This document shows positions 2,891 through 39,865 of a stretch of 64,000 bases of DNA, in pieces. Every line of letters begins with the position of its first letter. Position 1 is the stretch's first letter. The translations under genes and the position numbers were made by a program. Under the pieces are notes generated by a model that did no database searches, had not been told where the DNA came from, and worked only from the letters and a program-made list of their open reading frames with translations. This DNA is from an uncultured Bacteroidales bacterium (GTDB lineage: Bacteria; Bacteroidota; Bacteroidia; Bacteroidales; Paludibacteraceae), in the NCBI GenBank assembly GCA_900319105.1, contig ONND01000003.1:1-64000 (forward strand). The letters are read 5' to 3'.

Positions 2891-5359
2891 TTATTTCACT
2901 CTTGCGCCTTGAGCGGTATATACCTTGCCATCACGGACGATATAGAGCGTACCGTCAATGAGCACTTTTCGAGTATCTTTAACGTCGTTAGCGATAACTT
3001 CTTCAATGTCTTCGAGCAGGGGATTTGCCGGGTCTTGGAAGAGTGCCTGCAGATAGATGTCGCCGCTGACGGTAACCGTACGCATAGCATTCTTGTCGCC
3101 ATCGGACCAACGGACAAATTCATAGCCTTCCTTGGCGAGAGCCATGATAGTAGTCGTATTATCTGCGCAATCCGGCATTCGTGTCATGAGGGCAGTGCCT
3201 TTCATAAGGTCGTTACTCTCAATCTGGAACAAATATCCAAATACACCATCTGATTCACAAGAATGCCCTGTTCCGGCAAAAACAGCCTCTAAAATCACAT
3301 TCTCCTTCACCTCATCCCAGAAACGGTTGGGCTGTTGATTTCCATCGCTCCAAGTAACGAAACGGTAACCGCTGTTAGCGCTTGCCCCAATGGTACCTCG
3401 TTTATCGTCACAGTCCGGAGTTTTCAGAATATGTACCATTCCCATATTTTCATCATTGCTCCATGCGGTAAACATATACGGGAAAGTGCCGTTTTTCTCA
3501 CAATCGGATTCTACAAAATGCGCTACAAGGTGCATATCTCTGTTTACATCCGCTATGTTAGTGACAGGTTCGTATGAATAAACAACATTGCCATTATCCA
3601 CATCTACCCATGCTTCAAATATGTATCCGGCAAAACCAGAAGCGCTTATACGCGCAGAAGGATCATCGCAACTTGGAATCTTATAGATTGCCACTGCGCC
3701 TTGTTGCGCATTTGCACTCTCTACATCTAATCTATATGGGAAAGTCCCATTAGTGGAGCAGTCGGCTTCCACGAAATAGGCTTGCAGATTCATATCGCGG
3801 TTCACATTGGCAATAGAAGTGATGGGTTCATACGAATACACCAGATTATTATCCACATCGTACCACGCCTCGAAAGCATAGCCTGCATAGGGATAGGCGG
3901 CAATCCGGGCGGACGCGTCTTCGCAATCCGGAGCCTTGAATACTTGAATAGAACCGGCTCCCTGTAGGTTGACCGAAGTATTCAGCTGGTACGGGAAAAC
4001 ACCATTTGTGGAGCAGTCTGCTTCCACGAAATAGGCTTGCAGATTCATATCGCGGTTCACATTGGCAATAGAAGTGATGGGTTCATACGAATACACCAAG
4101 TTGTTATCCATATCGTACCACGCCTCAAAAGCATAGCCTGCATAGGGATAGGCGGCAATTTGAGCAGACGCGTCTTCGCAATCCGGAGCCTTGCGTATTT
4201 GGGTTGTGCCTGCCTGCGGCATATTGGCACTCAGGTTCAACTGATAGGGGAAGACACCATTGGTGGAGCAGTCCGATTTAACCCACTGCGCAGAAAGGTG
4301 CATGTCGCGATTGACATTCGCAATAGTAGTTTGCGGCTGATACGAATAAACGACATTATTATCCACATCGTACCACGCCTCAAAGGCATAGCCCGCATAG
4401 GGGTAAGCGGCTATTTGAGCGGAAGTATTATCACAATCAGGCTCTTTAGTTACCGTGATAGAACCCTTTGCGGCATCGCTATTCAACACTTCAAATGCGT
4501 AAGGGAAATTGCCGGCAACGCTGACGCTGCTCCAATAACCGGAATTGTAATTGCTCACATAATTACAGGGCACATACACATGCGCAGAGGAAGGAATACC
4601 GCTGAATGTGTTGGATTGAATCGAAGGAGCGGCACCATTCTTATTAATATATATACCCCGTACATTTCCGCATTGGTAGAAGACGTTTGCCTCCATCGAA
4701 TTGAGCAAAGAAGATGTAGTACCTACCGCCCCGAAAAATACATACTCGAGCGAGCTGCAATTTCCGAAGAAGTAGTTGGTCACTTTCTCACATGCAGCGG
4801 GCAACACTATAGACTTCAAATTGCTGCATCCATAGAAAATAGCTGTCGCCTCATCGGCAACATAGAAGTTTGATACGGAATTATATTGCGTAAAAGTGAC
4901 ATTCTTCAGTGCACCACATGCGGAGAAAATATATTCACCGTTAAACGAAATATCCGAACTATTGATAGTAATGTCTTGTAATTTTGAGCAACCATAGAAC
5001 GCGTATTTCCCAATGGCAATCAACGAGCTGTTAACCGTGATGGAAGTGAGGTTCGTACACTTATAAAACGCATTATCTGAGATTGTACTTACCGTAAATG
5101 AATGGCCACTATAACTCACTTGATTAGGGATAGTGATACTTCCCGAAACATAATTGGAGTTGCTACTCTGCTCCGCTTTAGGCAACACTACGGCATCGTA
5201 GATATCAGCAATGCCCATCTCCGGCCATGCGGAGTGTGTGAGGCGATAATAGAGTCCGTTGATAAGTGTTTTTTCTGCAATGGTCTCATTAACATAAGCT
5301 GCGGTCGCATTACCTGCCATCAAGAGACACGCTGTCAATGTAATCCATATTTTTTTCAT
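2891..5359 (-). CDS. Secreted BspA-like LRR protein with B-repeats and T9SS sorting domain
   Basis: An 822-residue protein with a signal peptide (about 1-20, cleavage near ATA-AYV). Residues about 75-260 are BspA/LRR_5-type leucine-rich repeats (motif IxxxAFxxCxxLxxI). From about 285 to 775 there are six copies of an approximately 85-residue InlB-B-like repeat containing FPYxL, PDCxDxSA and YAGYAFEAW. Each unit carries two conserved cysteines (PDC and DCSTNG), so disulfides are possible. The last 30 residues (LIDGTLYIVRDGKVY then TAQGARV) match the T9SS type A sorting domain. It should be exported by the T9SS encoded at 50-56 kb and anchored at or released from the surface. The start is preceded by the shared leader element. 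A binding or adhesion role is inferred from domains. Confidence 0.88.
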   Translation of the reverse strand: MKKIWITLTACLLMAGNATAAYVNETIAEKTLINGLYYRLTHSAWPEMGIADIYDAVVLPKAEQSSNSNYVSGSITIPNQVSYSGHSFTVSTISDNAFYKCTNLTSITVNSSLIAIGKYAFYGCSKLQDITINSSDISFNGEYIFSACGALKNVTFTQYNSVSNFYVADEATAIFYGCSNLKSIVLPAACEKVTNYFFGNCSSLEYVFFGAVGTTSSLLNSMEANVFYQCGNVRGIYINKNGAAPSIQSNTFSGIPSSAHVYVPCNYVSNYNSGYWSSVSVAGNFPYAFEVLNSDAAKGSITVTKEPDCDNTSAQIAAYPYAGYAFEAWYDVDNNVVYSYQPQTTIANVNRDMHLSAQWVKSDCSTNGVFPYQLNLSANMPQAGTTQIRKAPDCEDASAQIAAYPYAGYAFEAWYDMDNNLVYSYEPITSIANVNRDMNLQAYFVEADCSTNGVFPYQLNTSVNLQGAGSIQVFKAPDCEDASARIAAYPYAGYAFEAWYDVDNNLVYSYEPITSIANVNRDMNLQAYFVEADCSTNGTFPYRLDVESANAQQGAVAIYKIPSCDDPSARISASGFAGYIFEAWVDVDNGNVVYSYEPVTNIADVNRDMHLVAHFVESDCEKNGTFPYMFTAWSNDENMGMVHILKTPDCDDKRGTIGASANSGYRFVTWSDGNQQPNRFWDEVKENVILEAVFAGTGHSCESDGVFGYLFQIESNDLMKGTALMTRMPDCADNTTTIMALAKEGYEFVRWSDGDKNAMRTVTVSGDIYLQALFQDPANPLLEDIEEVIANDVKDTRKVLIDGTLYIVRDGKVYTAQGARVK
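3769..4279 (-). repeat. Two nearly identical 255-bp tandem units inside the LRR gene
   Basis: The DNA around 3769-4023 is repeated with few changes around 4024-4278, an 85-codon period matching the B-repeat unit. Neighbouring units are more diverged. Such identity makes in-frame expansion or loss by recombination likely. Confidence 0.8.
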
Positions 5360-5403
5360 AAGCTTTGTTGCCGGTTATATCCCATCGGCTCGTCGGTTTT
5401 AAA
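5357..5403 (-). promoter_or_regulatory. Conserved T9SS-cargo leader element, copy A
   Basis: The minus strand reads TTTAAAACCGACGAGCCG then ATGGGATATAAC then CGGC, ending in CAACAAAGCTTATG, where the last ATG is the start codon. GCCG and CGGC can pair around a 12-nt loop. In copies B and C the stem is GGCG/CGCC, so one base pair is swapped while pairing is kept. This copy has AAG where B and C have an upstream ATG, showing that the second ATG is the real start in all three genes. Confidence 0.65.
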
Positions 5404-5414
5404 TGATTATTTTG

Positions 5415-7334
5415 TCAATAGGAATCTTTTACTCGTGCACCTTGTGCATTGAATACAGAGCCATCACCTCGGATAATGTAGACTTGTCCGTCAATAAGAA
5501 CTTTGTTTACCTTTTCATTGGAGAAGATGTTATCTATGCCTGTTTGTTTAGAAACAAAGGTTGCAGTAATAGTTACATTCTCCGTTACGGTCAAACCGGT
5601 TGTTTCATCGTAGTTTTCCCAACTTTCGAATACATAACCCTCATCTGCTGTGGCTGTCAGGAAGATTACTTTGCCATACTCTATTTCCTGACTCAAATCC
5701 ACAGGATTATTGTCCGCATCTTTAGCCGTTACGGAGCCGTTTTCGGCCACTACTGTCACCATATAGGTATTAATGGTATAAGTAGCCTTAACGGTAATTG
5801 CTGCGGTGATGCTGCTGAAATCCTTGTCCCAACCGGCAAAGGTATATCCCTCTCGTGTCGGGTCAGCAGGAGCAGTAGCAGCCTCTTCAAAGAGGACATA
5901 TTCTTCTTTGAGAACACGGTCATCAAAATCTACGAAGGTTACATGATAAGCTTTTTTATTGAAAGAAGCAGAAATGGTAGCATTAGCGGTAACGGTGAGT
6001 GAGCCATTCGCTTCGCAACCGCTCCATGCGCCGAACTCGTAGCCCTCATTCGGGGTAGCAATGAAGTGCAGGATAGTTCCTTCTTCCACTGATGTGAGGT
6101 CTATACCGGTCTCTTGCAGAGCGATAGTACCGTTTGCCGGTTGGTCAACCGTAATAGTGTAACTGGGTTTTTGCACAAAGACAACTTGTACATTCGTATT
6201 CTTGGTTACTTGTAGGTTCATGGGATTAGTGTACTCATTGACAGCACTTTCCCCTTCACGTGTTACCAGATATAGGACGAACTTGTAGTGATTATTTGGT
6301 GTAGCTGTAAACACTAAGTTGGTGCCGTATAATACAGGTTGACCGAGGTCAACGGTATTTCCGCCGGAAGTAACAATTACAGAACCATTTGTCGGAGTGG
6401 CTAAGGTTACATTCATTTCTTTTAGTTTGAAAGTGCAACTCACGGTCACATCCCCATTGACAGTAATGGTGCCATCTTGAGCACATCCGCTCCATGTATC
6501 TAATTCATAATTGGCATCGGGAGTCGCCGTGAAATGCAATAATGTACCTTCCGGTACTTCGGTTAAATTAACGGATTCGGTAACATTAATAGAACCGTGC
6601 TCCGGCTGCACCAACGTAACGGTATAGGTATTTACCGGCTCTTCCGTAGAAATGACGATATTACCACTGGCACCTTTCTTGTCAATGCCATATCCACCGG
6701 AAGACATACCCGAGCGCACTACTGCTCCGGACGGAGCAATGATATAGCAGTTGGTTACTTCAACATAATCTTGGCGTAGCAACTGAGATACTGTTATATT
6801 GGAGTTATTGATATATGTTTTTCCACCTACACTATTGTTCCCTATACCATAATCACTTTCCGCTACAATAGTTGTATTATTAATACGCAGCGTACCATAA
6901 GCTGTACGAATAGCAAAATAGGTATCGGACTTTGCATTCAACGAGCCACTTCCGGTTATGGTCAGATCACTATAGTTGCTAAGTTGAATAGCGCAATAAT
7001 AACCTGTTCCGTTATAGTGCAAAGAGTTTTCACCTATAAGTTGAACAGTTACTGCCGGAGTGCTATAGGTACTTTTGGATTCCAATACACTTGCGCTTCC
7101 GGTAAATGATACCTGGGCATTGTTAAGGGTCAATGTCTGGGTGGAAACATCGTAAGTAATGGTACCGGATGCCGTAACGCCGGAGATTTCGTTCAGCGCT
7201 GCTACAATTCCGGTAGGAGAAGTCGCAATGGCATCACTAATCGTTAATCCGCACATCATGAATTCTTCTGAGGCATAAGAGACCTGAAAGATGCAGCATA
7301 ATACTGCCAAAATGAGTAATTTAATCTTTTTCAT
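5415..7334 (-). CDS. Secreted beta-strand-rich protein with B-repeats and T9SS sorting domain
   Basis: From the ATG at 7334 (an ATG two codons upstream at 7340 is less likely because the leader copy at 5.4 kb lacks it) the protein has 639 residues. A signal peptide (about 1-22) precedes a region rich in short beta strands and Asn/Ser/Thr (about 25-230, with phrases such as LTLNNAQVSF and LTITGSGSLNAKSD) that resembles the Cthe_2159-type carbohydrate-binding beta-helix family. Residues about 235-600 hold divergent InlB B-repeats (HGSINVTE, GYEFGAWSG) and one Listeria-Bacteroides repeat (GYTFAGWDKDF). The C-terminus LIDGQVYIIRGDGSVF then NAQGARVKDSY is a T9SS type A sorting domain. Gene start is 12 bp or less from the leader; the stop is 56 bp before the next cargo gene start. 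Confidence 0.85.
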   Translation of the reverse strand: MKKIKLLILAVLCCIFQVSYASEEFMMCGLTISDAIATSPTGIVAALNEISGVTASGTITYDVSTQTLTLNNAQVSFTGSASVLESKSTYSTPAVTVQLIGENSLHYNGTGYYCAIQLSNYSDLTITGSGSLNAKSDTYFAIRTAYGTLRINNTTIVAESDYGIGNNSVGGKTYINNSNITVSQLLRQDYVEVTNCYIIAPSGAVVRSGMSSGGYGIDKKGASGNIVISTEEPVNTYTVTLVQPEHGSINVTESVNLTEVPEGTLLHFTATPDANYELDTWSGCAQDGTITVNGDVTVSCTFKLKEMNVTLATPTNGSVIVTSGGNTVDLGQPVLYGTNLVFTATPNNHYKFVLYLVTREGESAVNEYTNPMNLQVTKNTNVQVVFVQKPSYTITVDQPANGTIALQETGIDLTSVEEGTILHFIATPNEGYEFGAWSGCEANGSLTVTANATISASFNKKAYHVTFVDFDDRVLKEEYVLFEEAATAPADPTREGYTFAGWDKDFSSITAAITVKATYTINTYMVTVVAENGSVTAKDADNNPVDLSQEIEYGKVIFLTATADEGYVFESWENYDETTGLTVTENVTITATFVSKQTGIDNIFSNEKVNKVLIDGQVYIIRGDGSVFNAQGARVKDSY

Positions 7335-7378
7335 AAGCATTGTTGGCGGTTATATCCCATCGCCCCATCGGTTTTAAA
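7332..7378 (-). promoter_or_regulatory. Conserved T9SS-cargo leader element, copy B
   Basis: The minus strand carries TTTAAAACCGATGGGGCG, loop ATGGGATATAAC and CGCC, then CAACAATGCTTATG with the start codon at the end. It is identical over the core to copy C at 11571-11617 and has the GGCG/CGCC form of the hairpin. Confidence 0.65.
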
Positions 7379-7599: not shown

Positions 7600-8919
7600 T
7601 TATATCAATGCCTTATCTATGCCGAGTAAGAATGGTATCACTCCCATAAAGGTTACTCCTTCGTCATTCATCCATGGATGCGTATTGCCATCCAGAATCA
7701 CAATCTTGCGGAAAGAGTCGCGTATGTTACGCAGCGAGAATGTTTCCTGCTCCATTTTTTCCTTCGTATCCACATTCAATGCAGACTGAATATATAGTTG
7801 CTCGGAACCTGTATTGACGATAAAATCAATCTCGTATTGCGACTGTTGGCGTTTGCCGTCCACCACTCTTTCCACTTCCACCACGCCGACATCTACCCGG
7901 TAGCCTCTTCGTATCAACTCATTGTATATCATGTTTTCCATCAGATGGCTGCGCTCTTGCTGGCGGAAATTAAGCCGTGCATTGCGAAGCCCCAGATCCA
8001 TCGCATAATACTTCTTGATATTCTCGAAATAGCGTTTCCCTTTTACATCGTAGCGTTCTGCGTGAGAAATGAGATAGGCATCTTCCAAATACTCCAAATA
8101 GCCTTTGATGGTTTTATCCGTAGTCTTATGTGCCATAACGGATGTTATTGTGTTGGCAAACTTATAGGGGTTGGATAGCGAACCGATTGATGAATACACA
8201 GCATCCGTCAACGCATCAATAATAACATCGTCCTTTAGTTTGTGGCGCTCTACAATATCCTTCATATACACATTCTTGTGCAGCCCCGCCAGATAATTGC
8301 GTTTCTCCTGCTCATTGGGCTCAAGTACAGCTAATGGCATGCCGCCGAACTCCAGATACCGGTCCAATGCATCCCGTTTGTCCATTCCGGCGTAAGCATA
8401 ATACTCTGCGAAGGAAAGCGGGTAAACCTTGATTTCACTACCACGGTCACGGAAATAAGTTACGATATCCGATGACAGCATCTTGCTATTACTGCCGGTA
8501 ACATATACATCTATATTCGGTTGTTTACGCAAGCCGTTTAAGATGTCATAGAACGTAATATATAGCAGCTCTCTGTCTTCTTCAGGCACTTGTGACCAAT
8601 CTACGCCGGGAGCTTTTACTTTGGTGCACAATTGGATTTCATCTATAAAGACATAGTATTTACGCCGTTTGTTTGCGCATTTTGCCATTACATACTCATA
8701 TAACGTATTAGGGTTACGATATTTAGTATTAGCCGTATCTTCCAAATCTATTTCCACGAAACAATCATTCTTAACGCCTTTATTGATAAGAAATTGCTTG
8801 TACAGATGGGATAGAAGGAACGACTTGCCGGAACGTCTTATACCGGTAATTATCTTCACTTTACCATTCCAACTTTTGGCGAAAAGCCGCTCTACATACT
8901 CGTTTCTTTGTATATCCAT
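7600..8919 (-). CDS. AAA+ ATPase with DUF4143 domain
   Basis: A 439-residue protein. The N-terminal AAA_14 domain has Walker A ITGIRRSGKSFLL (about 24-36), Walker B YYVFIDEIQL (about 90-99) and sensor-like VYVTGSNSKML (about 139-149). The C-terminal DUF4143 region carries KYYAMDLGLRNARL and a PD-(D/E)XK-like core in YEIDFIV (about 365-371). This family is widespread in Bacteroidetes and archaea and usually stands alone; its cellular role is not settled. Its own promoter lies at 8980-9010 and a terminator follows, so it is a single-gene unit set between the T9SS cargo genes. Confidence 0.9.
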   Translation of the reverse strand: MDIQRNEYVERLFAKSWNGKVKIITGIRRSGKSFLLSHLYKQFLINKGVKNDCFVEIDLEDTANTKYRNPNTLYEYVMAKCANKRRKYYVFIDEIQLCTKVKAPGVDWSQVPEEDRELLYITFYDILNGLRKQPNIDVYVTGSNSKMLSSDIVTYFRDRGSEIKVYPLSFAEYYAYAGMDKRDALDRYLEFGGMPLAVLEPNEQEKRNYLAGLHKNVYMKDIVERHKLKDDVIIDALTDAVYSSIGSLSNPYKFANTITSVMAHKTTDKTIKGYLEYLEDAYLISHAERYDVKGKRYFENIKKYYAMDLGLRNARLNFRQQERSHLMENMIYNELIRRGYRVDVGVVEVERVVDGKRQQSQYEIDFIVNTGSEQLYIQSALNVDTKEKMEQETFSLRNIRDSFRKIVILDGNTHPWMNDEGVTFMGVIPFLLGIDKALI

Positions 8920-9122: not shown

Positions 9123-11573
9123 TTAGCGCACTCGTGTGCCAAGGATGTTATAAATCTTTCCGTCACGGAGGATGTAGAGGACACCATTATCAATGACTTT
9201 GGTACAAGGTACATTATTCCATTGTACATTGTCAATGCCTTCGCTAATTGGATTAGCCGGATCTTGGAAGAGTGCCTTCAGATAGGTATCTCCGGTAACC
9301 TGGATGGTACGGGTAGCATTTTTATCTCCGTCAGACCAACGAACGAACTCAAATCCTTCTTTTGCAATAGCGGCAATCTGTGTAGATGGGTCTGCGCAAT
9401 CAGGGATTCTGGTCATCATCGTCGTACCCATGTTATAATCATTGGGTTCGATCTTGAACAAGTACCCGAGCACACCGTCGTTTTGACAACTATGATCTTT
9501 CTCTTTGAACATAGCGCTGATGTTCACATCTTTGTTTACCTCGTTCCAGTTACGCGGGTTTTCAGTAATGCCGTCACTCCAGATGACAAATTCGTAGCCA
9601 GTCTTCGGACGGGCGTATGCGCGTCCGGAGGGGTTGTCACAGGTTGGTACAGTAACGTCAACCGAGCCGAAAACCTCATTATCCGGAACGGCGCTGAACA
9701 TATAGGGGAAGATACCATCCTTGTCGCATCCATGTTCGCCTTGTGTAAAGAGTGCGGAAATATTCACGTCCTCCGTCACTTCGCTCCATACACGCGGGTT
9801 CTCGGTTTCACCGTCACTCCAGATCATAAAGACATATCCGGAAGCCGTGTTTGCACGGGCATAAACACGTGCAGAAGGATTGTCGCAATCAGGGGCTTTG
9901 GCTATCTCCACCGTACCGGTCACTTTGCTGGTGCTGACCACATTGAACTGATAGGGGAAAACGCCATTAGTAGCGCAGTCTGCCGCCACGAAATGGGCTT
10001 GCAGATTCATGTTCCGGTCCACGGTGGCTATAGAAGTAACCGCTTGATAGGAATACACCACGCTATTATCCTCATCATACCATGCCTCAAACGCATATCC
10101 GGCGTACGGATAGGCTGCTATCTGAGCAGACGCATCATCGCAACTTGGTGCTTTTAGCACGTCTACAGAACCAGCCTCCGGCATATTGGCTGTTATGTTC
10201 AACTGATAAGGGAAAACACCATTGGTACCGCAGTCTGCCGCTTCCCAATTGGCAACCAAGTGCATATCTTCAGTAACAGCCGGAATATTGGCAGTTGCTT
10301 GCAGCGAATAAAGCACATTACCATTATTGGCATCGGTCCATCCCGCAAAAGTATATCCAGCGTACGGATAGGCGGCAATAGACGCAGAGGCGTCACTGCA
10401 ATCCGGGGCTTTGGTAATCGATATGGAGCCTTTGTTCTCGTCTGCGTTCTCAATCTTAAATAAATAAGGGAACTTACCATTGACCGAACAATCATTTGCC
10501 ACGAACAGCGCGGAGAGGTGAATCTTTGTATTGGTATTGATTTCTCCTTCACTCCACGTACGAGGGTTCTGCTGATTTCCGTCTGACCACTGATAGAACG
10601 AATATTTCTCATTAGGATATGCCGCGATTGTAGCTGTCATATCGTTGCAATCGGGTGCTTTGACGATAACAACGGAGCCCATCGTCTCATCCGCACTAAC
10701 TACCCGGAACTCGTTATCCCACTCTTCCTCAATAGTTACATTTGCCCAATAACCTCCTGCACCTGTAATAACCGTCGAATAGCCACACGGCATGATGAAC
10801 TTGGCGGTAGAAGGCATGTTATTGAAAGTTGTAGCAGTTACGGTAGGTGCAATACCGGACCATCCGTGCAGATATACTTTCTCAAGGTTAGTACAATTAG
10901 CAAATACCTCGTTACCAAAATTTTTAATAGAACGCGTAGCCTGATAAGGCATACCGAAATGAATCTCTTTGAGTGCGCTACAATTCAAGAAGAAATGATC
11001 CGGCAATTTCTCGATGGTTCGTGGCAGAACAATGAGTTGCAGGCCGGAACAGTCCATAAAAGCACCGATAGCAGTGGAGAAATTACATTGTGTGGCGTCG
11101 TACTGAGCAAACTCCACCGTCGCCAACCGGCCGTTGTTGCTGAAGATATATTCTCCAACCAATGTCACTGTTGAAGAACTGAACGAGACTTTCGCCAAAT
11201 ATGGGCAATTGGAGAAGGCATAACGGTTAATCGTAATGTCATCGCTTGCCAATGTTACTTGCTGTAAGTTGGCGCACCCATAGAATGCATGGTGCTCAAT
11301 AGTGGTGACGTTGTAATCATTACCGCCGTACGAGACAGTAGCAGGAATAGTAATACTACCTGACACATAGTCCGCATTACCGGAAGCGCCATCTGCTACT
11401 TTCGGCAATACAACTGCGCTACGCATGTCTATACCTAATGATGGATAGGTGTCATGCGTGAGTTGATAATACAACCCACCAATTTGTGTTTTCTCGGCAA
11501 TTACTTCGCTGCCGGCAAACGCCATTGTGCATGTCATGAGGCAAGCACAGAAGGATAATAAAAATTTTCTCAT
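9123..11573 (-). CDS. Secreted BspA-like LRR protein with B-repeats and T9SS sorting domain (paralog)
   Basis: From the ATG at 11573 (upstream ATG at 11579 is part of the leader) the protein has 816 residues and is a paralog of the 2891-5359 product with the same order of parts. A signal peptide (about 1-20) is followed by LRR_5 repeats (about 70-260, with AFYGCANLQQVTL), then six to seven B-repeats of about 80-85 residues (YPYAGYAFEAWYDED, GYEFVIWSDG). Several repeats here are of the WSDG...NPRxW subtype, which is rare in the other copy. The C-terminus VIDNGVLYILRDGKIY then NILGTRVR is a T9SS type A sorting domain. Export by the T9SS and a surface adhesion or binding role are inferred. Confidence 0.88.
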   Translation of the reverse strand: MRKFLLSFCACLMTCTMAFAGSEVIAEKTQIGGLYYQLTHDTYPSLGIDMRSAVVLPKVADGASGNADYVSGSITIPATVSYGGNDYNVTTIEHHAFYGCANLQQVTLASDDITINRYAFSNCPYLAKVSFSSSTVTLVGEYIFSNNGRLATVEFAQYDATQCNFSTAIGAFMDCSGLQLIVLPRTIEKLPDHFFLNCSALKEIHFGMPYQATRSIKNFGNEVFANCTNLEKVYLHGWSGIAPTVTATTFNNMPSTAKFIMPCGYSTVITGAGGYWANVTIEEEWDNEFRVVSADETMGSVVIVKAPDCNDMTATIAAYPNEKYSFYQWSDGNQQNPRTWSEGEINTNTKIHLSALFVANDCSVNGKFPYLFKIENADENKGSISITKAPDCSDASASIAAYPYAGYTFAGWTDANNGNVLYSLQATANIPAVTEDMHLVANWEAADCGTNGVFPYQLNITANMPEAGSVDVLKAPSCDDASAQIAAYPYAGYAFEAWYDEDNSVVYSYQAVTSIATVDRNMNLQAHFVAADCATNGVFPYQFNVVSTSKVTGTVEIAKAPDCDNPSARVYARANTASGYVFMIWSDGETENPRVWSEVTEDVNISALFTQGEHGCDKDGIFPYMFSAVPDNEVFGSVDVTVPTCDNPSGRAYARPKTGYEFVIWSDGITENPRNWNEVNKDVNISAMFKEKDHSCQNDGVLGYLFKIEPNDYNMGTTMMTRIPDCADPSTQIAAIAKEGFEFVRWSDGDKNATRTIQVTGDTYLKALFQDPANPISEGIDNVQWNNVPCTKVIDNGVLYILRDGKIYNILGTRVR

Positions 11574-11617
11574 AAGCATTGTTGGCGGTTATATCCCATC
11601 GCCCCATCGGTTTTAAA
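11571..11617 (-). promoter_or_regulatory. Conserved T9SS-cargo leader element, copy C
   Basis: Same core as copy B, GGCG, ATGGGATATAAC, CGCC, ending in ATGCTTATG at the start codon. Its upstream flank (AACAAACAATC and further) is also shared with the orphan copy at 24520-24558. Confidence 0.65.
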
Positions 11618-23700: not shown

Positions 23701-24334
23701 GCAGCTCAGGCGCCATCAGTTGATCCGAACCGTCCAGACGGTCGGGGAATATATACCGGAAATTCTTATATGCATTCTTTGTTTGGGTATCGTCGGCTTT
23801 GTACTTAAAGATATATACATCTATACCTACATAGAACTGCTGGTTGGTCAAGTTCTCCGGCAGATACCAGTCGAACTCCAGATATACCACGCGGTCAAAA
23901 CTGCCGTCCAGCGATCTCTGGGCAGGCAGGGATACGGAGTGGTTACCCGATCCGGCATCAATCTGCACGGTGCCGCTGGTGGTGCGGGTGATCTTAACGG
24001 TACCCATTCCCGCACGCAGATCGACATCGGCGGAACTGTTCACCTTCGGGTCACTGCAGTTCTGCCGATCCGTACTGCGGAAGTACAGTATCTGTGAAGA
24101 GCCGCTCCCGGACTGGTTCATGGAGTACCATACATGACTGCCAATACCTAATCGGTAGTTGTTCTGCCAACCGTACGACCAGATAGGGATCTTGAAGCGC
24201 ACTACGCCGTTGCCCATAGACATCGCGCTGTAGTTGTTGATTTGCTCCAGGAAGTCGTTGTTAGCGTGTACACTCATCGTACACAAAGCCATCATACCTA
24301 GTACGAGAGCTACAAAAAATCTGTTCTTCATCAT
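14492..24334 (-). CDS. Giant secreted multidomain protein 1 (LamG, carboxypeptidase-regulatory-like) with disrupted C-terminus
   Basis: A 3,280-codon frame. A signal peptide (about 1-25) leads into beta-rich domains, then two carboxypeptidase-regulatory-like modules (about 870-1010, GEISGSIRQ and ARLSGRVLYH). A conserved middle block (about 1370-1560) has ILRDPPGSGSSCYL, GDVFIGHTNEALYG and KMGTQFAYTQDYI, also found in giant protein 2. Two LamG/concanavalin-like jelly-roll domains follow (about 2070-2230 and 2260-2420, with LYFDGQSGHYART and GNWHHCALVISR). Near the C-terminus are Trp/Gly modules (NPGWSWISTYL) and the start of a T9SS sorting domain (NQHVIIIRNNEKYDITG). The frame then leaves the expected ending and adds about 60 residues read out of frame through the lipoprotein-like gene. 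Surface or matrix binding is inferred; no enzyme motif was recognised. Confidence 0.85.
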   Translation of the reverse strand: MMKNRFFVALVLGMMALCTMSVHANNDFLEQINNYSAMSMGNGVVRFKIPIWSYGWQNNYRLGIGSHVWYSMNQSGSGSSQILYFRSTDRQNCSDPKVNSSADVDLRAGMGTVKITRTTSGTVQIDAGSGNHSVSLPAQRSLDGSFDRVVYLEFDWYLPENLTNQQFYVGIDVYIFKYKADDTQTKNAYKNFRYIFPDRLDGSDQLMAPELQSPYLYLLDESGSPMKDGKVAIPYVVYQTPKSYTTTLNSTPVNISNRAGAIIVPATDSVQSGFKATFTVQPNADVTTTTTRSTNHIDIPAFHRIYSFSATEQKDEMESYNGLNQLSWTIRNPQATDLMTTDYFEIQRAMKADYSDATSIGLEPMAAGKGTYLFTDDTRNTDSGIPLDTTTVCREMVWNDYMLSAEDSDPLCDMDLKLVAKSQVLPAAPVYYRVRRASTGAWGWGHPFAQATTLYRHNFLAPLAATQANYTKDPEFATNHKVHFNVKIDNAPIPDQGTVLPQDCELVPTFKTLRGTSDSITFTIDIEQESYDQTVGMSIRPSGTSLVRYLHAGKNVYTFPVTLGRLEVWIHIGQNVIYNDHWESFALCSIDCDQDHVDELDGSVIQIYSTLHEVRGGTQHIYKSAYRTLKNQGPASRMKKVQERWAAVRDSVFRQMVDSMQRSVLPSAAGGRCMWDRGAQLILMRTLQETGTTIELVVPQDSIRRNDDGSWTAHITDVANMACTNYSYKVRIDPSAASIRFQNPASLQPVTINGPSLYFNEAASIASFTASKGDAARDRKSGVLLQWIPTSAAVDQYILMRLPVGSTNSPDTIYRGMDNSYFDTSAVPGQHYEYTVVTHYDCKSVHSDHSATAEGWRTPYGEISGSIRQTDNSGMAGVTVSLSANGQTLKTLVTGADGAFLFDSLTYGNGTQYTVTPTSQYGTFSYNSTSSGMATVTLAANGCVQQGIDFVNTSCARLSGRVLYHMSTIPVSGVCFILNGDTIRRGGGIYTSGIDGNFELTLPKSMPCRLQVAKAGHTFTNDGWLFVTEGDTTFSLVKALDGVRFYDRTKVRLVGRVAGGLDQQALPPALGFGTNNLGDNLQLVLQLEGDNTAHIVHNPDDLTQDTLHFTVDSTQIIYEQKRIIIRPNIRSGEYAVDLFPVKYKVTQATATGYATLLDVQAGVPTFDLTNAPLTVLTSDSMGRHATYNARFDRIYRNPMQVGMIQLMYGMAQDGMGEEKLGVSSIVDQSHTVRLYSKDSTGTVQYLFGHPIFQQGRTYQFRVSAYEDYFYNNNKLNARDRVRLSGGTLKVFNGFKSGRNTATETYPLDEKGEALINVEVDNLNLMATGDNALRALDLSVEREGSNTDYCALRGFVTGNNVENGDIRAIQSDIQVLDILRDPPGSGSSCYLEKGATYKSSATFSIAYKIGTNCDATIGTSYDQSVGVIAVTTYSGLISSVGKSYKFTLPLVLSGKYSRTNTCTYTTTEKISTSSSPSFVGASGDVFIGHTNEALYGTVRAVRVIDDSTYLLRQPAIQAGYIKEIASALGVDGKTYHFVIAKETVLGGKMGTQFAYTQDYIANTLIPKLIRERNALLIDAPDSITAQSIANQQGKAVYWNRATKDDEIGTVYRFITPTNKPDYNEPDRISAINAVLVKWVAILATNEKDKVTAIQSGKKVGTYSVSGGTSREYSETFSGEYSASGNVSFGMDIANLGGFFNNAGNALVNKANGATNEYFKALSDLIEKYSAGKTYTEDKNNSTSVEGKAAGTQWKTKWSPVLDFSLDGSGTWDNESASRKIGFTIAPDGFANTTVSVYRSEQDSLFRKKLAELTNFITRPTQKEKYGSFIFFQEGGTSHCPYEGEARTQWYYPGQFVLGNATLPMENPKITLDQYSISNVPADQSAVFRLTLVNDNLNTDGRPARGQVFSLSVEPQSNPKGAILLIDGEPLTSSSTLTFFCEPGVPIVKTLQIQRGIVDDYEDLTLKLASTTCTSISAYAKLSVHYMPESSPVSIAYPRDKWVMNTLSARDSVGYYLPVTIDGFNIHHKNFDHIEFQYKLSTENNDSWVTQCSFYADDSLYNKATGNKAKIENGRIQAFRFYGERDPKELNYDLRAVSYCRYGSGFVSKASPVISGTKDTRPPVLFGKASPANGILTLKDNISMRFSEPIAGNWLDEDNNFQILGVTNNTGITQTTSLYFDGQSGHYARTKAERELSLTDLSIDMLIKPSVKGREMALFSHGDEEYNFSLSLTADNRLKLTVVEDNKVAETKQSKPMGQLSATDFTRVIMVYDSEKKTVRFYAGTMDITDNPSTQWSLMNFAAPIMVGATIDSTSLYQGNLMELRVWTKAMSPEEISTTHLRRLTGYEYGLLDYYPMNENKGSELSDLATGATLFARGLSWTRPQGLSLATNGSPVLLQPTLFSRSAAEDYTLLFWFRSNNSKQDSVSLFGTSMNDSTTMEIALHDGEISFRFGTEHKMATANLTDGNWHHCALVISRTFNNGSIAIDGKKVLLFPALETGALSGTKIWLAKGMKGNLDDVCLFEQALPSEVVNEFYLQSPNGEEMGLINLLCFSQVKRNSSGVMELVFTPNNQRVFKDANGNTVNKVQPLLMDDLSAQADKSNSAPVRDRGQLTKLPFTWNYQLSDLMINIKSQPREINKRTMYLTVRDVEDLNGNRLQSPVTWTVYVDLNSVIWNDRNHREKLTDDEQTHQFTMVITNTTGMTRQFTIENLPKWLTASPAQGTLEAEEKKTVTFTIKAAELKIGTHQQMIYLTDDQGLAEPLLLEIAKETEPPYIDVDLNRYPLNMSLCGNVILNKTDKTIVNTTPEDYVFAIYNNDCVGAAHCTDNGELYLTVHGSEKLTNKPIRFQLWKAATGKVYNLTPDTLVLFAHGAVYGCGKDDPVQLQTGGSEMQTIALNPGWSWISTYLDIPAALSTAITAEQPWTEGDLIKNPATRKFCTYSETADKFVGSLKTLDYGQMYMVNSFEVNSMHLFGFTLPEDSMHITLKGNGQWNALPCMFSQVMTLRDAMSDYYDHASTGDLIKAQNRFAVFSDDDRWVGDLTALTPGEGYLMRRMEEGTVTVNFYPHKASAPKKITDRFQDDLGAQNTDLFTNPKASTNMTMIAKLNELTNEGVKELRVYVGDELAAVAAPITIEEEALYFITIQSDQIGELRFEMDGETYVPVCGTINYSADSHHGSLKAPIILIPADTDGVRKLIENQHVIIIRNNEKYDITGLFCRLQEGFREGTGQPSTADNALWKRRPSRVDGAGEVRLHLLHDRCSQGGPQGPVPEYRKGLRAG

Positions 24335-24471: not shown

Positions 24472-24494
24472 AAAAAAAAGCGCCCCAAAGGACG
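24472..24494 (-). terminator. Intrinsic terminator behind the orphan leader
   Basis: Minus strand CGTCC, loop TTTG, GGGCG (one G-U pair), then CTTTTTTTT. It lies only about 30 bp after leader copy D and before the promoter of giant gene 1. Confidence 0.7.
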
Positions 24495-24519
24495 ATTTTT
24501 TTAGCGGTATGCTTAGTAT

Positions 24520-24558
24520 AGGTTGGCTGTTATATCCCATCGCCCCATCGGTTTTAAA
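24520..24558 (-). promoter_or_regulatory. Orphan copy D of the T9SS-cargo leader
   Basis: Same core as copies B and C (TTTAAAACCGATGGGGCG, ATGGGATATAAC, then AGCC in place of CGCC) and the same upstream flank as copy C. No start codon or coding frame follows; a terminator does. It is either the remnant of a deleted cargo gene or a short leader RNA. The intergenic stretch 24335-24755 otherwise holds only the elements listed here. Confidence 0.6.
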
Positions 24559-39791: not shown

Positions 39792-39865
39792 GGTCCATTA
39801 GCTCAACTGAATAGAGTACCACACTACGGATGTGGGGGTTGCAGGTTTGAATCCTGCATGGATCA
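39792..39865 (+). tRNA. tRNA-Arg (anticodon ACG)
   Basis: Cloverleaf drawn by hand: acceptor GGTCCAT/ATGGATC with a G2-U71 wobble, D stem GCTC/GAGT, anticodon stem CCACA/TGTGG with loop CTACGGA, T stem GCAGG/CCTGC with loop TTTGAAT, discriminator A; CCA is not encoded. The D loop has G18 A19 instead of G18 G19, and the T loop has T56 instead of C56, so the tertiary G19-C56 pair is replaced by A19-U56. A34 would be converted to inosine by TadA. Confidence 0.9.

Follow-up and report, generated by a model that had tools for sequence, protein, structure and literature searches.

Three genes on the minus strand of a 64,000-nt stretch from an uncultured Bacteroidales bacterium of the Paludibacteraceae (contig ONND01000003.1, positions 1 to 64,000; this whole stretch is hereafter called the window) are preceded by copies of one small element, in which a short stem displays a 14-nt loop just before the start codon, and a fourth copy lies further along without such a gene. 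Followed through other genomes, the element shows a covarying hairpin, a fixed distance to AUG, a link to genes for exported proteins and independence from flanking and coding sequences, and that it makes up an RNA family missing from Rfam 15 is well supported. The reading favored here is that it operates in cis as a structured RNA within the 5′ untranslated region, where a factor acting in trans, most likely a protein that binds RNA, would set translation; as argued from sequence, we give this a probability of about 0.5.

The first-pass annotation of the window had described a leader of about 47 nt with an invariant loop, ending exactly at the start codons of three genes, and these copies are indeed present. 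A covariance model (R2), for which 25 diverged copies having 4-bp stems were taken from genomes other than the window's, recovers all three together with the fourth (E 9.3e-6 to 9.3e-5) and nothing else in the window at E ≤ 1; since no sequence of this genome entered the model, the window copies are not a matter of chance. All four (Table 1) conform to AAAACCGAYGN, stem GSC, loop GATGGGATATAACN, stem GSC and AAC, with ATGGGATATAAC identical in each of them (5374-5385, 7349-7360, 11588-11599, and 24529-24540). In the three gene copies ATG stands exactly 13 nt past the loop, at 5357, 7332, and 11571, respectively, while the listing of open reading frames (ORFs) starts the genes of copies 2 and 3 at an in-phase ATG located 6 nt further upstream. 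The exchange of one base pair between copy 1 and copies 2, 3, and 4, reported earlier within a 4-bp stem, stands (GCC/GGC versus GGC/GCC), whereas the fourth pair does not, the loop-closing innermost position being G-C in three copies and G-A in one, so that the stem amounts to 3 bp. The absence of leucine-rich repeats (LRRs) from one of the three products was also borne out, this being the protein of copy 2.

Table 1. Copies of the element in the window, their genes and the hairpin next to the orphan copy.
Feature	Coordinates	Strand	Parts	Downstream gene
Copy 1	5357..5401	-	5′ AAAACCGAYG, CCGA 5393-5396; stem GCC 5387-5389 / GGC 5370-5372; 14-nt loop 5373-5386	ATG 5357-5359 after spacer; 822-aa LRR_5/InlB-repeat protein, 2891-5359 (-)
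Copy 2	7332..7376	-	stem GGC 7362-7364 / GCC 7345-7347; loop 7348-7361	ATG 7332-7334, in-phase ATG also at 7338-7340; protein 5415-7340, InlB-type repeats, no LRR match
Copy 3	11571..11615	-	stem GGC 11601-11603 / GCC 11584-11586; loop 11587-11600	ATG 11571-11573, in-phase ATG also at 11577-11579; 818-aa LRR_5/InlB-repeat protein, 9123-11579
Copy 4, orphan	24519..24556	-	stem GGC 24542-24544 / GCC 24525-24527; loop 24528-24541	
Terminator-like hairpin with T run	24472..24502	-	just 3′ of the orphan copy; AAAAAAATCGTCC TTTG GGGCG CTTTTTTTT	

When public genomes were scanned for exact matches to CGATGGGATATAACNNNCAA, at least 117 loci came up. If CC[GA]A is required upstream and the stem must have 2 bp or more, 107 of these contain the element. 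The family consensus reads AAAACCGAYGNG, a stem of 3-5 bp, the 14-nt loop RAYGGGAUAUAACN, the closing strand of the stem, and AUG usually 13 nt past the loop. In the scan pattern one base was prescribed for the outer stem pair and one for the inner, whereas both bases of the middle pair were left free. Among 125 distinct copies having CCGA upstream (of 134, the window's genome included) the middle pair is G-C in 65, C-G in 56, U-A (TA in DNA) in 2 and unpaired in 2, with the outer pair being GC in 122/125 and the inner pair CG in 124/125. The covariation score of 0.358, compared to 0.098 for shuffled data, was reached by 0 of 500 shuffles, and in terms of mutual information the middle pair constitutes the strongest coupling between columns (z 76), any other pair of columns having z ≤ 12. 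The loop-closing position varies freely (G-C 58, G-A 34, G-U 26, and G-G 7; n = 125), and a 4-bp stem was rejected for the window's group because this innermost pair is unconstrained, true stems of 4-5 bp occurring in diverged copies. Of 140 hits in the pattern loci, 132 enclose exactly 14 nt by a stem of 3 bp or more, as compared with 0, 0, 0, and 1 of 140 for control loops of 12, 13, 15, and 16 nt; thus stem mismatches in most copies, which the annotation had named as evidence that would speak against its proposal, were not found.

Diverged copies display the same loop on quite different stems, namely GCTT/AAGC (in two families), GCTTT/AAAGC, GCTC/GAGC, GCCC/GGGC, GCCG/CGGC, GCCA/TGGT, GTCC/GGAC, and CTCC/GGAG, partly within the window's genus and partly in other families. 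As the alignment of 25 sequences (A6) was chosen for 4-bp stems, its 100% pairing is circular and only the variety of stems counts, the single C-G at its outer pair being one misaligned 5-bp row (L175); likewise, the alignment of 120 sequences (A2) was filtered by a pattern fixing some of the stem letters, the count over 125 copies being less filtered. Changes tolerated in the loop (GGT, GGA, CAATAAC, and AAG) indicate that its constancy is not merely a product of the search pattern, and CCGA, which was absent from that pattern, is found upstream of 125 of the 134 hits.

The earlier suggestion that the leader is conserved apart from the coding sequence holds over the whole collection. When redundancy by coding start was removed (121 of 133 genes left), identity was 0.26-0.27 outside the element as against 0.80 in the A run, which neither pattern nor filter had fixed; CC[GA]A was demanded by the filter, and this comparison is not used to infer that those letters are conserved. 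Because flank identity stays at background while that of the element does not, the family is more than a duplicated gene flank, an explanation rejected on these grounds for the family as a whole and accepted for a part of the window. Upstream of AAAACCGA, copies 3 and 4 are identical over 37 nt and copy 2 over 13 nt; in the 40-nt flank copy 2 matches copy 3 at 28/40 and copy 4 at 27/40 positions, whereas copy 1 matches copy 3 at 15/40. Thus copies 2-4 are related by duplication, while copy 1, which carries the swapped base pair, is not.

Downstream proteins were collected from 172 element rows, with ORFs sought on the element's own strand only (163/172 rows have one); subtraction of 9 rows without ORF and 6 dropped because of wrong frame, lack of the element or orphan status left 157. 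A signal-peptide-like start, as defined by a crude hydrophobicity rule, is present in 149 of them and missing in 8, the cytoplasmic-looking exceptions including a few small Cys-rich proteins that resemble zinc ribbons by eye. For products of at least 120 aa the share is 116/116 versus 230/522 (44%) for other ORFs in the pattern loci, where the first ATG of each ORF was taken and L012-L128 only were considered, which lowers the control rate somewhat. LRR_5 was detected in 23/157 proteins and InlB-type repeats in several; lipocalin-like, CsgG, FGE-sulfatase, Band 7, and other domains occur singly or in twos, and besides LRR and InlB-type repeats each listed Pfam family accounts for one to three of the 157. 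No metabolic or signalling theme common to the downstream genes emerged from the Pfam families listed for these proteins. The genes had initially been taken for cargo of the type IX secretion system (T9SS), an assignment that is not supported: Pfam Por_Secre_tail was found in 1/157 proteins (0/80 + 1/77) and its NCBIfam counterpart in 1/77, though in 19/157 that end at a contig or locus edge a C-terminal domain could be missed, and the sorting domain is present neither in the three leader-bearing window proteins nor in the 3280-aa protein. Since this domain is rare while export starts are near-universal, the common property is export and not type IX secretion. The covariance-model search proposed by the annotation thus yielded further copies and compensatory changes, as anticipated, and not the expected location upstream of T9SS cargo genes.

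With respect to the start codon the element spans about -40 to -11, and ATG follows the loop by 12-14 nt in 153/189 copies and by exactly 13 nt in 97/189, 8 more of the 197 copies having no ORF in place. TAnnTTTG represents the -7-like promoter box of Bacteroidetes, and at 20-140 nt before the loop it was found in 44/197 copies against 13.2 in shuffles of equal lengths, with the peak at 31-60 nt; this excess and its position suggest that the element lies within the transcript. In 26 copies with both landmarks placed, the standard deviation is 11.2 for the box-to-loop and 0.8 for the loop-to-ATG distance, these figures being bounded by the search windows (box 20-75 nt before, ATG 9-21 nt after the loop). 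Control of translation, which the annotation had offered, is the likely role in view of the fixed start-codon register. A thermosensor, one of the ways named there for such control, is unlikely, as conservation resides in the loop and the 5′ ACCGAYG and not in pairing to the start region.

According to record titles, the 107 loci belong to Bacteroidales, Paludibacteraceae, and other Bacteroidota, many coming from rumen or other herbivore gut samples. The 10 pattern loci without the element (L032, L035, L043, L058, L072, L083, L088, L105, L112, and L127), including records of Shewanella, Thalassolituus, a Bdellovibrionales and a Lokiarchaeota bin, are chance pattern matches apart from L088, which, with C-A as its middle pair, is possibly a weak copy. 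Model R2 and another one, R1, made of 120 copies, were both searched against 393 genomes of the order Bacteroidales, giving matches in 18/393 genomes for R1 (E ≤ 0.001) and in 16/393 for R2 (E ≤ 0.01). R1 matches in G425, G397, G179, and G077 (L171, L173, L174, and L176) were discarded as false, the loop being lacking on inspection, whereas all 16 R2 genomes, inspected per genome and not for each single match, contain at least one copy with the loop, that of G184 (L165) on an imperfect, bulged stem. These genomes represent 11 of 206 genera, so no fewer than 11 genera of Bacteroidales have the family, a single genome giving up to 8 matches; in the window's genus pattern scanning gave 0-5 copies per genome (37 genomes). 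In a phylum-wide sample of 296 genomes R2 matched the window's own genome only. Phage origin was rejected, as the scan of viral sequences gave two matches, both without CCGA upstream and read as unrelated. So was a mobile element: DDE transposase accounts for 2 of 146 neighbour proteins, and no family dominates among the 25 of 112 listed, each of those beyond the 25 matching at most one protein.

Known RNA families do not cover the element. The Rfam 15 scan of the window at gathering score returned a tRNA at 39792 only, a relaxed scan of 7 loci gave 6 matches none of which overlaps the element, and in two further short stretches there were none (L168) and two unrelated weak matches on the opposite strand, respectively. 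Literature queries on structured RNAs of Bacteroidales and Bacteroidetes and on a ten-letter stretch of the loop brought no description at the level of titles and listings; a larger catalogue of bacterial RNA motifs, reportedly compiled in 2017, is outside the coverage of these searches, so that absence from print is unproven. The cis-regulatory leaders of Rfam 15, such as Bacteroid-trp and SAM-II long loops, are likewise structured Bacteroidetes leaders coming from comparative genomics, the distinction being that no model matches the element and that its genes lack a metabolic theme. Both names figure among the Bacteroidetes motifs in the motif table of PMC2864571, where motifs bearing Rfam numbers are covered by our Rfam scans and the comparison with the table was made by name, not by sequence.

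A constant place in the initiation region together with a conserved loop is what a protein-bound translational operator should show, and a conserved, covarying structure in a 5′ leader is what a riboswitch should show; the element has both. We suppose that the short stem, arbitrary in sequence, serves for displaying the nearly fixed 14-nt loop, and that the loop and the adjoining single-stranded ACCGAYG, also fixed, would form one recognition surface. The surface would be read by a partner acting in trans, most likely a protein that binds RNA, and this partner would stabilise the weak hairpin across the initiation region and in this way set translation of a small set of genes (0-8 per genome) encoding exported proteins and lipoproteins. 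In Bacteroides, RRM proteins, RbpB among them, bind to RNA that is single-stranded (PMC11697453); they are a conceivable class of partners, without a link to the element here. Repression is favored over activation. According to PMC9976891, initiation in Bacteroidia depends on adenines upstream, on little structure and on the lack of a nearby AUG, while structure near AUG or extra AUGs disfavour it. A GC-rich hairpin whose loop contains an AUG runs counter to all this, so a conditional and mostly inhibitory element is the more likely.

Several observations weigh against this interpretation. Wobble pairs are not in excess over A-C mismatches (3 versus 4 among 399 cells), so the covariation by itself is no proof that the RNA strand is the one that acts, and the mean predicted probability of the three stem pairs is only 0.54 (69 leaders), which at the same time makes a fold-stabilising partner plausible. 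Invariance of the loop in the first set of copies was imposed by the search pattern, and nearly all sequences are metagenome-assembled. For the 125 pattern-scan copies the excess of the -7-like box is weak (13 versus 6.7, standard deviation 2.5); most of it comes from 67 copies in later-fetched loci (30 versus 5.4). No domain is common to the downstream genes. Finally, two of the 41 genomes from the window's genus give no match even when E ≤ 1 is allowed, and the matches of others are weak only, thus any system using the element is patchy.

The main rival is a small riboswitch, possible though unlikely in our estimation, in which the loop and ACCGAYG would make up an aptamer of about 35 nt sensing a metabolite or second messenger and controlling export-related genes. 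The preQ1-I and other very small translational riboswitches are about 35 nt long, with one hairpin and A-rich flanks at the translation start, and in all these respects the element resembles them, being compact, almost fixed in its loop and placed at the initiation region; it differs by having no covarying pseudoknot partner for the loop and no queuosine family in the downstream Pfam lists (25 of 30 families listed in the second). Diversity of exported targets would fit a signalling ligand, and c-di-GMP (GEMM) riboswitches, which elsewhere serve as signal-responsive leaders of surface genes, similarly precede varied extracellular proteins, but in architecture and sequence the element is unrelated to them (no Rfam match). 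Against any riboswitch speak the single stem of 3-5 bp, with no strong signal of a second helix or pseudoknot among the columns that vary, the downstream genes without metabolic theme and the lack of Rfam matches. Direct reading by the ribosome comes next, whereby the hairpin would dock on the 30S platform and replace the Shine-Dalgarno contact without a separate regulator. The bS6:bS18 (rpsF) leader motif has a conserved CCG beside a short hairpin, as does the element, the targets of which are not ribosomal. The element is, however, absent from the rpsF leaders of 7/7 genomes, the window's own included (in an eighth no rpsF was found), so identity with this motif was rejected, and the same absence tells against direct reading, along with the number of matches per genome (0-8), which is far too small for a general signal. 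In the six genomes in which a 16S partner for pairing was sought, the window's own and 5 relatives, no 16S gene was found. Tight AUG register suits the idea, as does the fact that Bacteroidia ribosomes do not use Shine-Dalgarno pairing, the anti-Shine-Dalgarno tail being held by bS21, bS18, and bS6 (PMC9976891); on balance we consider it decidedly doubtful.

The remaining explanations, like the bS6:bS18 site, are less likely. A factor acting on DNA might also account for the inverted repeat, as a covarying palindrome could be a transcription factor site and wobble pairs are not in excess; such an operator is nevertheless very improbable, given that in 26 copies the distance to ATG is near constant and that to the -7-like box is not, and that a long asymmetric centre of 14 nt is unlike a dimer site. 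About equally improbable is a target for a base-pairing small RNA (sRNA) with a seed complementary to the loop. The conserved loop would suit seed pairing, but ACCGAYG is conserved as well, and in the window's genome (90.8% complete) the decamer TGGGATATAA, searched on both strands, occurs six times, each time inside an element copy. Hence no perfect 10-nt complement is assembled there, seeds of 7-8 nt being outside this test, and a long-seed sRNA was set aside. GibS and FopS sRNAs and RbpB exert post-transcriptional control over genes for exported proteins in Bacteroides (PMC11697453), which is the kind of control proposed for the element; the two sRNAs, however, act in trans, and the window's genome has no perfect complement of the decamer. 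The least probable option of all is an upstream ORF, AUG GGA UAU AAC NGS CAA..., translated from the loop and having its stop overlapped with the gene start (AUGA). The frame stops at codon 10 in 63/127 copies, as start-codon overlap predicts, yet 29/127 have no stop within 30 codons and 3/127 no loop AUG, codon 5 may specify R, W, S, C, G, or A, ACG replaces AUG in some diverged copies, and the stem covaries regardless of coding. A leader peptide was set aside, because no conserved frame with stop and peptide was found in the 127 copies. A trans-acting factor, most likely a protein, that reads the loop and ACCGAYG remains our inferred and preferred agent of translational control.

Some copies of the element have no ordinary gene. 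The orphan copy in the window lacks a start codon at the usual distance, the next listed ORF beginning at 24334, about 190 nt past the loop, and the segment 24472-24556 (-) combines this copy, the terminator-like hairpin and the T run with no listed ORF between them; possibly it is a small RNA, which might soak up the partner of the leader as a sponge, or else the remnant of a gene since lost. Similar cases in relatives are L046 (-, ~634), L084 (+, ~6772), and L122 (-, ~6113). After the orphan leaders of L084 and L122, and partly in L046, there is a similar hairpin-bearing sequence (GCGGGC...CCCGC) and CTTTGACATATTG.

In other places leaders are gathered. Within about 1.9 kb of L128 (4240-6085) there are four of them, one before each of several small genes for exported proteins, and likewise in L057, L045, and L020; such runs include recurring small proteins with CKISG/CRVYG-like motifs recognized by eye. 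In L066 (+) two tandem copies with loops near 303 and 344, 41 nt apart, precede one gene. In L178 / L270 (+, ~1541) the leader stands before a 79-aa Cys-rich protein (MITPKATDYKRIQG...CGGGCSCPC), possibly a precursor of a modified peptide. AAA_14-type ATPases are frequent among the neighbours of leader genes (11/146), and in the window the ORF 7600-8919 (-), situated between two leader genes, has AAA_14 plus DUF4143.

The element adds to bacterial leaders an RNA family beyond Rfam 15, residing in mostly uncultured gut and rumen Bacteroidales, almost always before genes for exported proteins, and sitting where Bacteroidales lack the usual Shine-Dalgarno contact. It may be, although we find it rather unlikely, that the hairpin in its start-codon register singles out the mRNAs for exported proteins, which would then be initiated in a mode of their own, the hairpin being read by the 30S platform or by a dedicated initiation or targeting factor; if true, synthesis of secreted proteins would be controlled as a group in a class that does without Shine-Dalgarno pairing. 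The search for the partner may uncover either a new regulator that binds RNA or a riboswitch of very small size, and once found, this partner would explain by what means a major lineage of the animal gut translates its secreted and surface proteins as a set.

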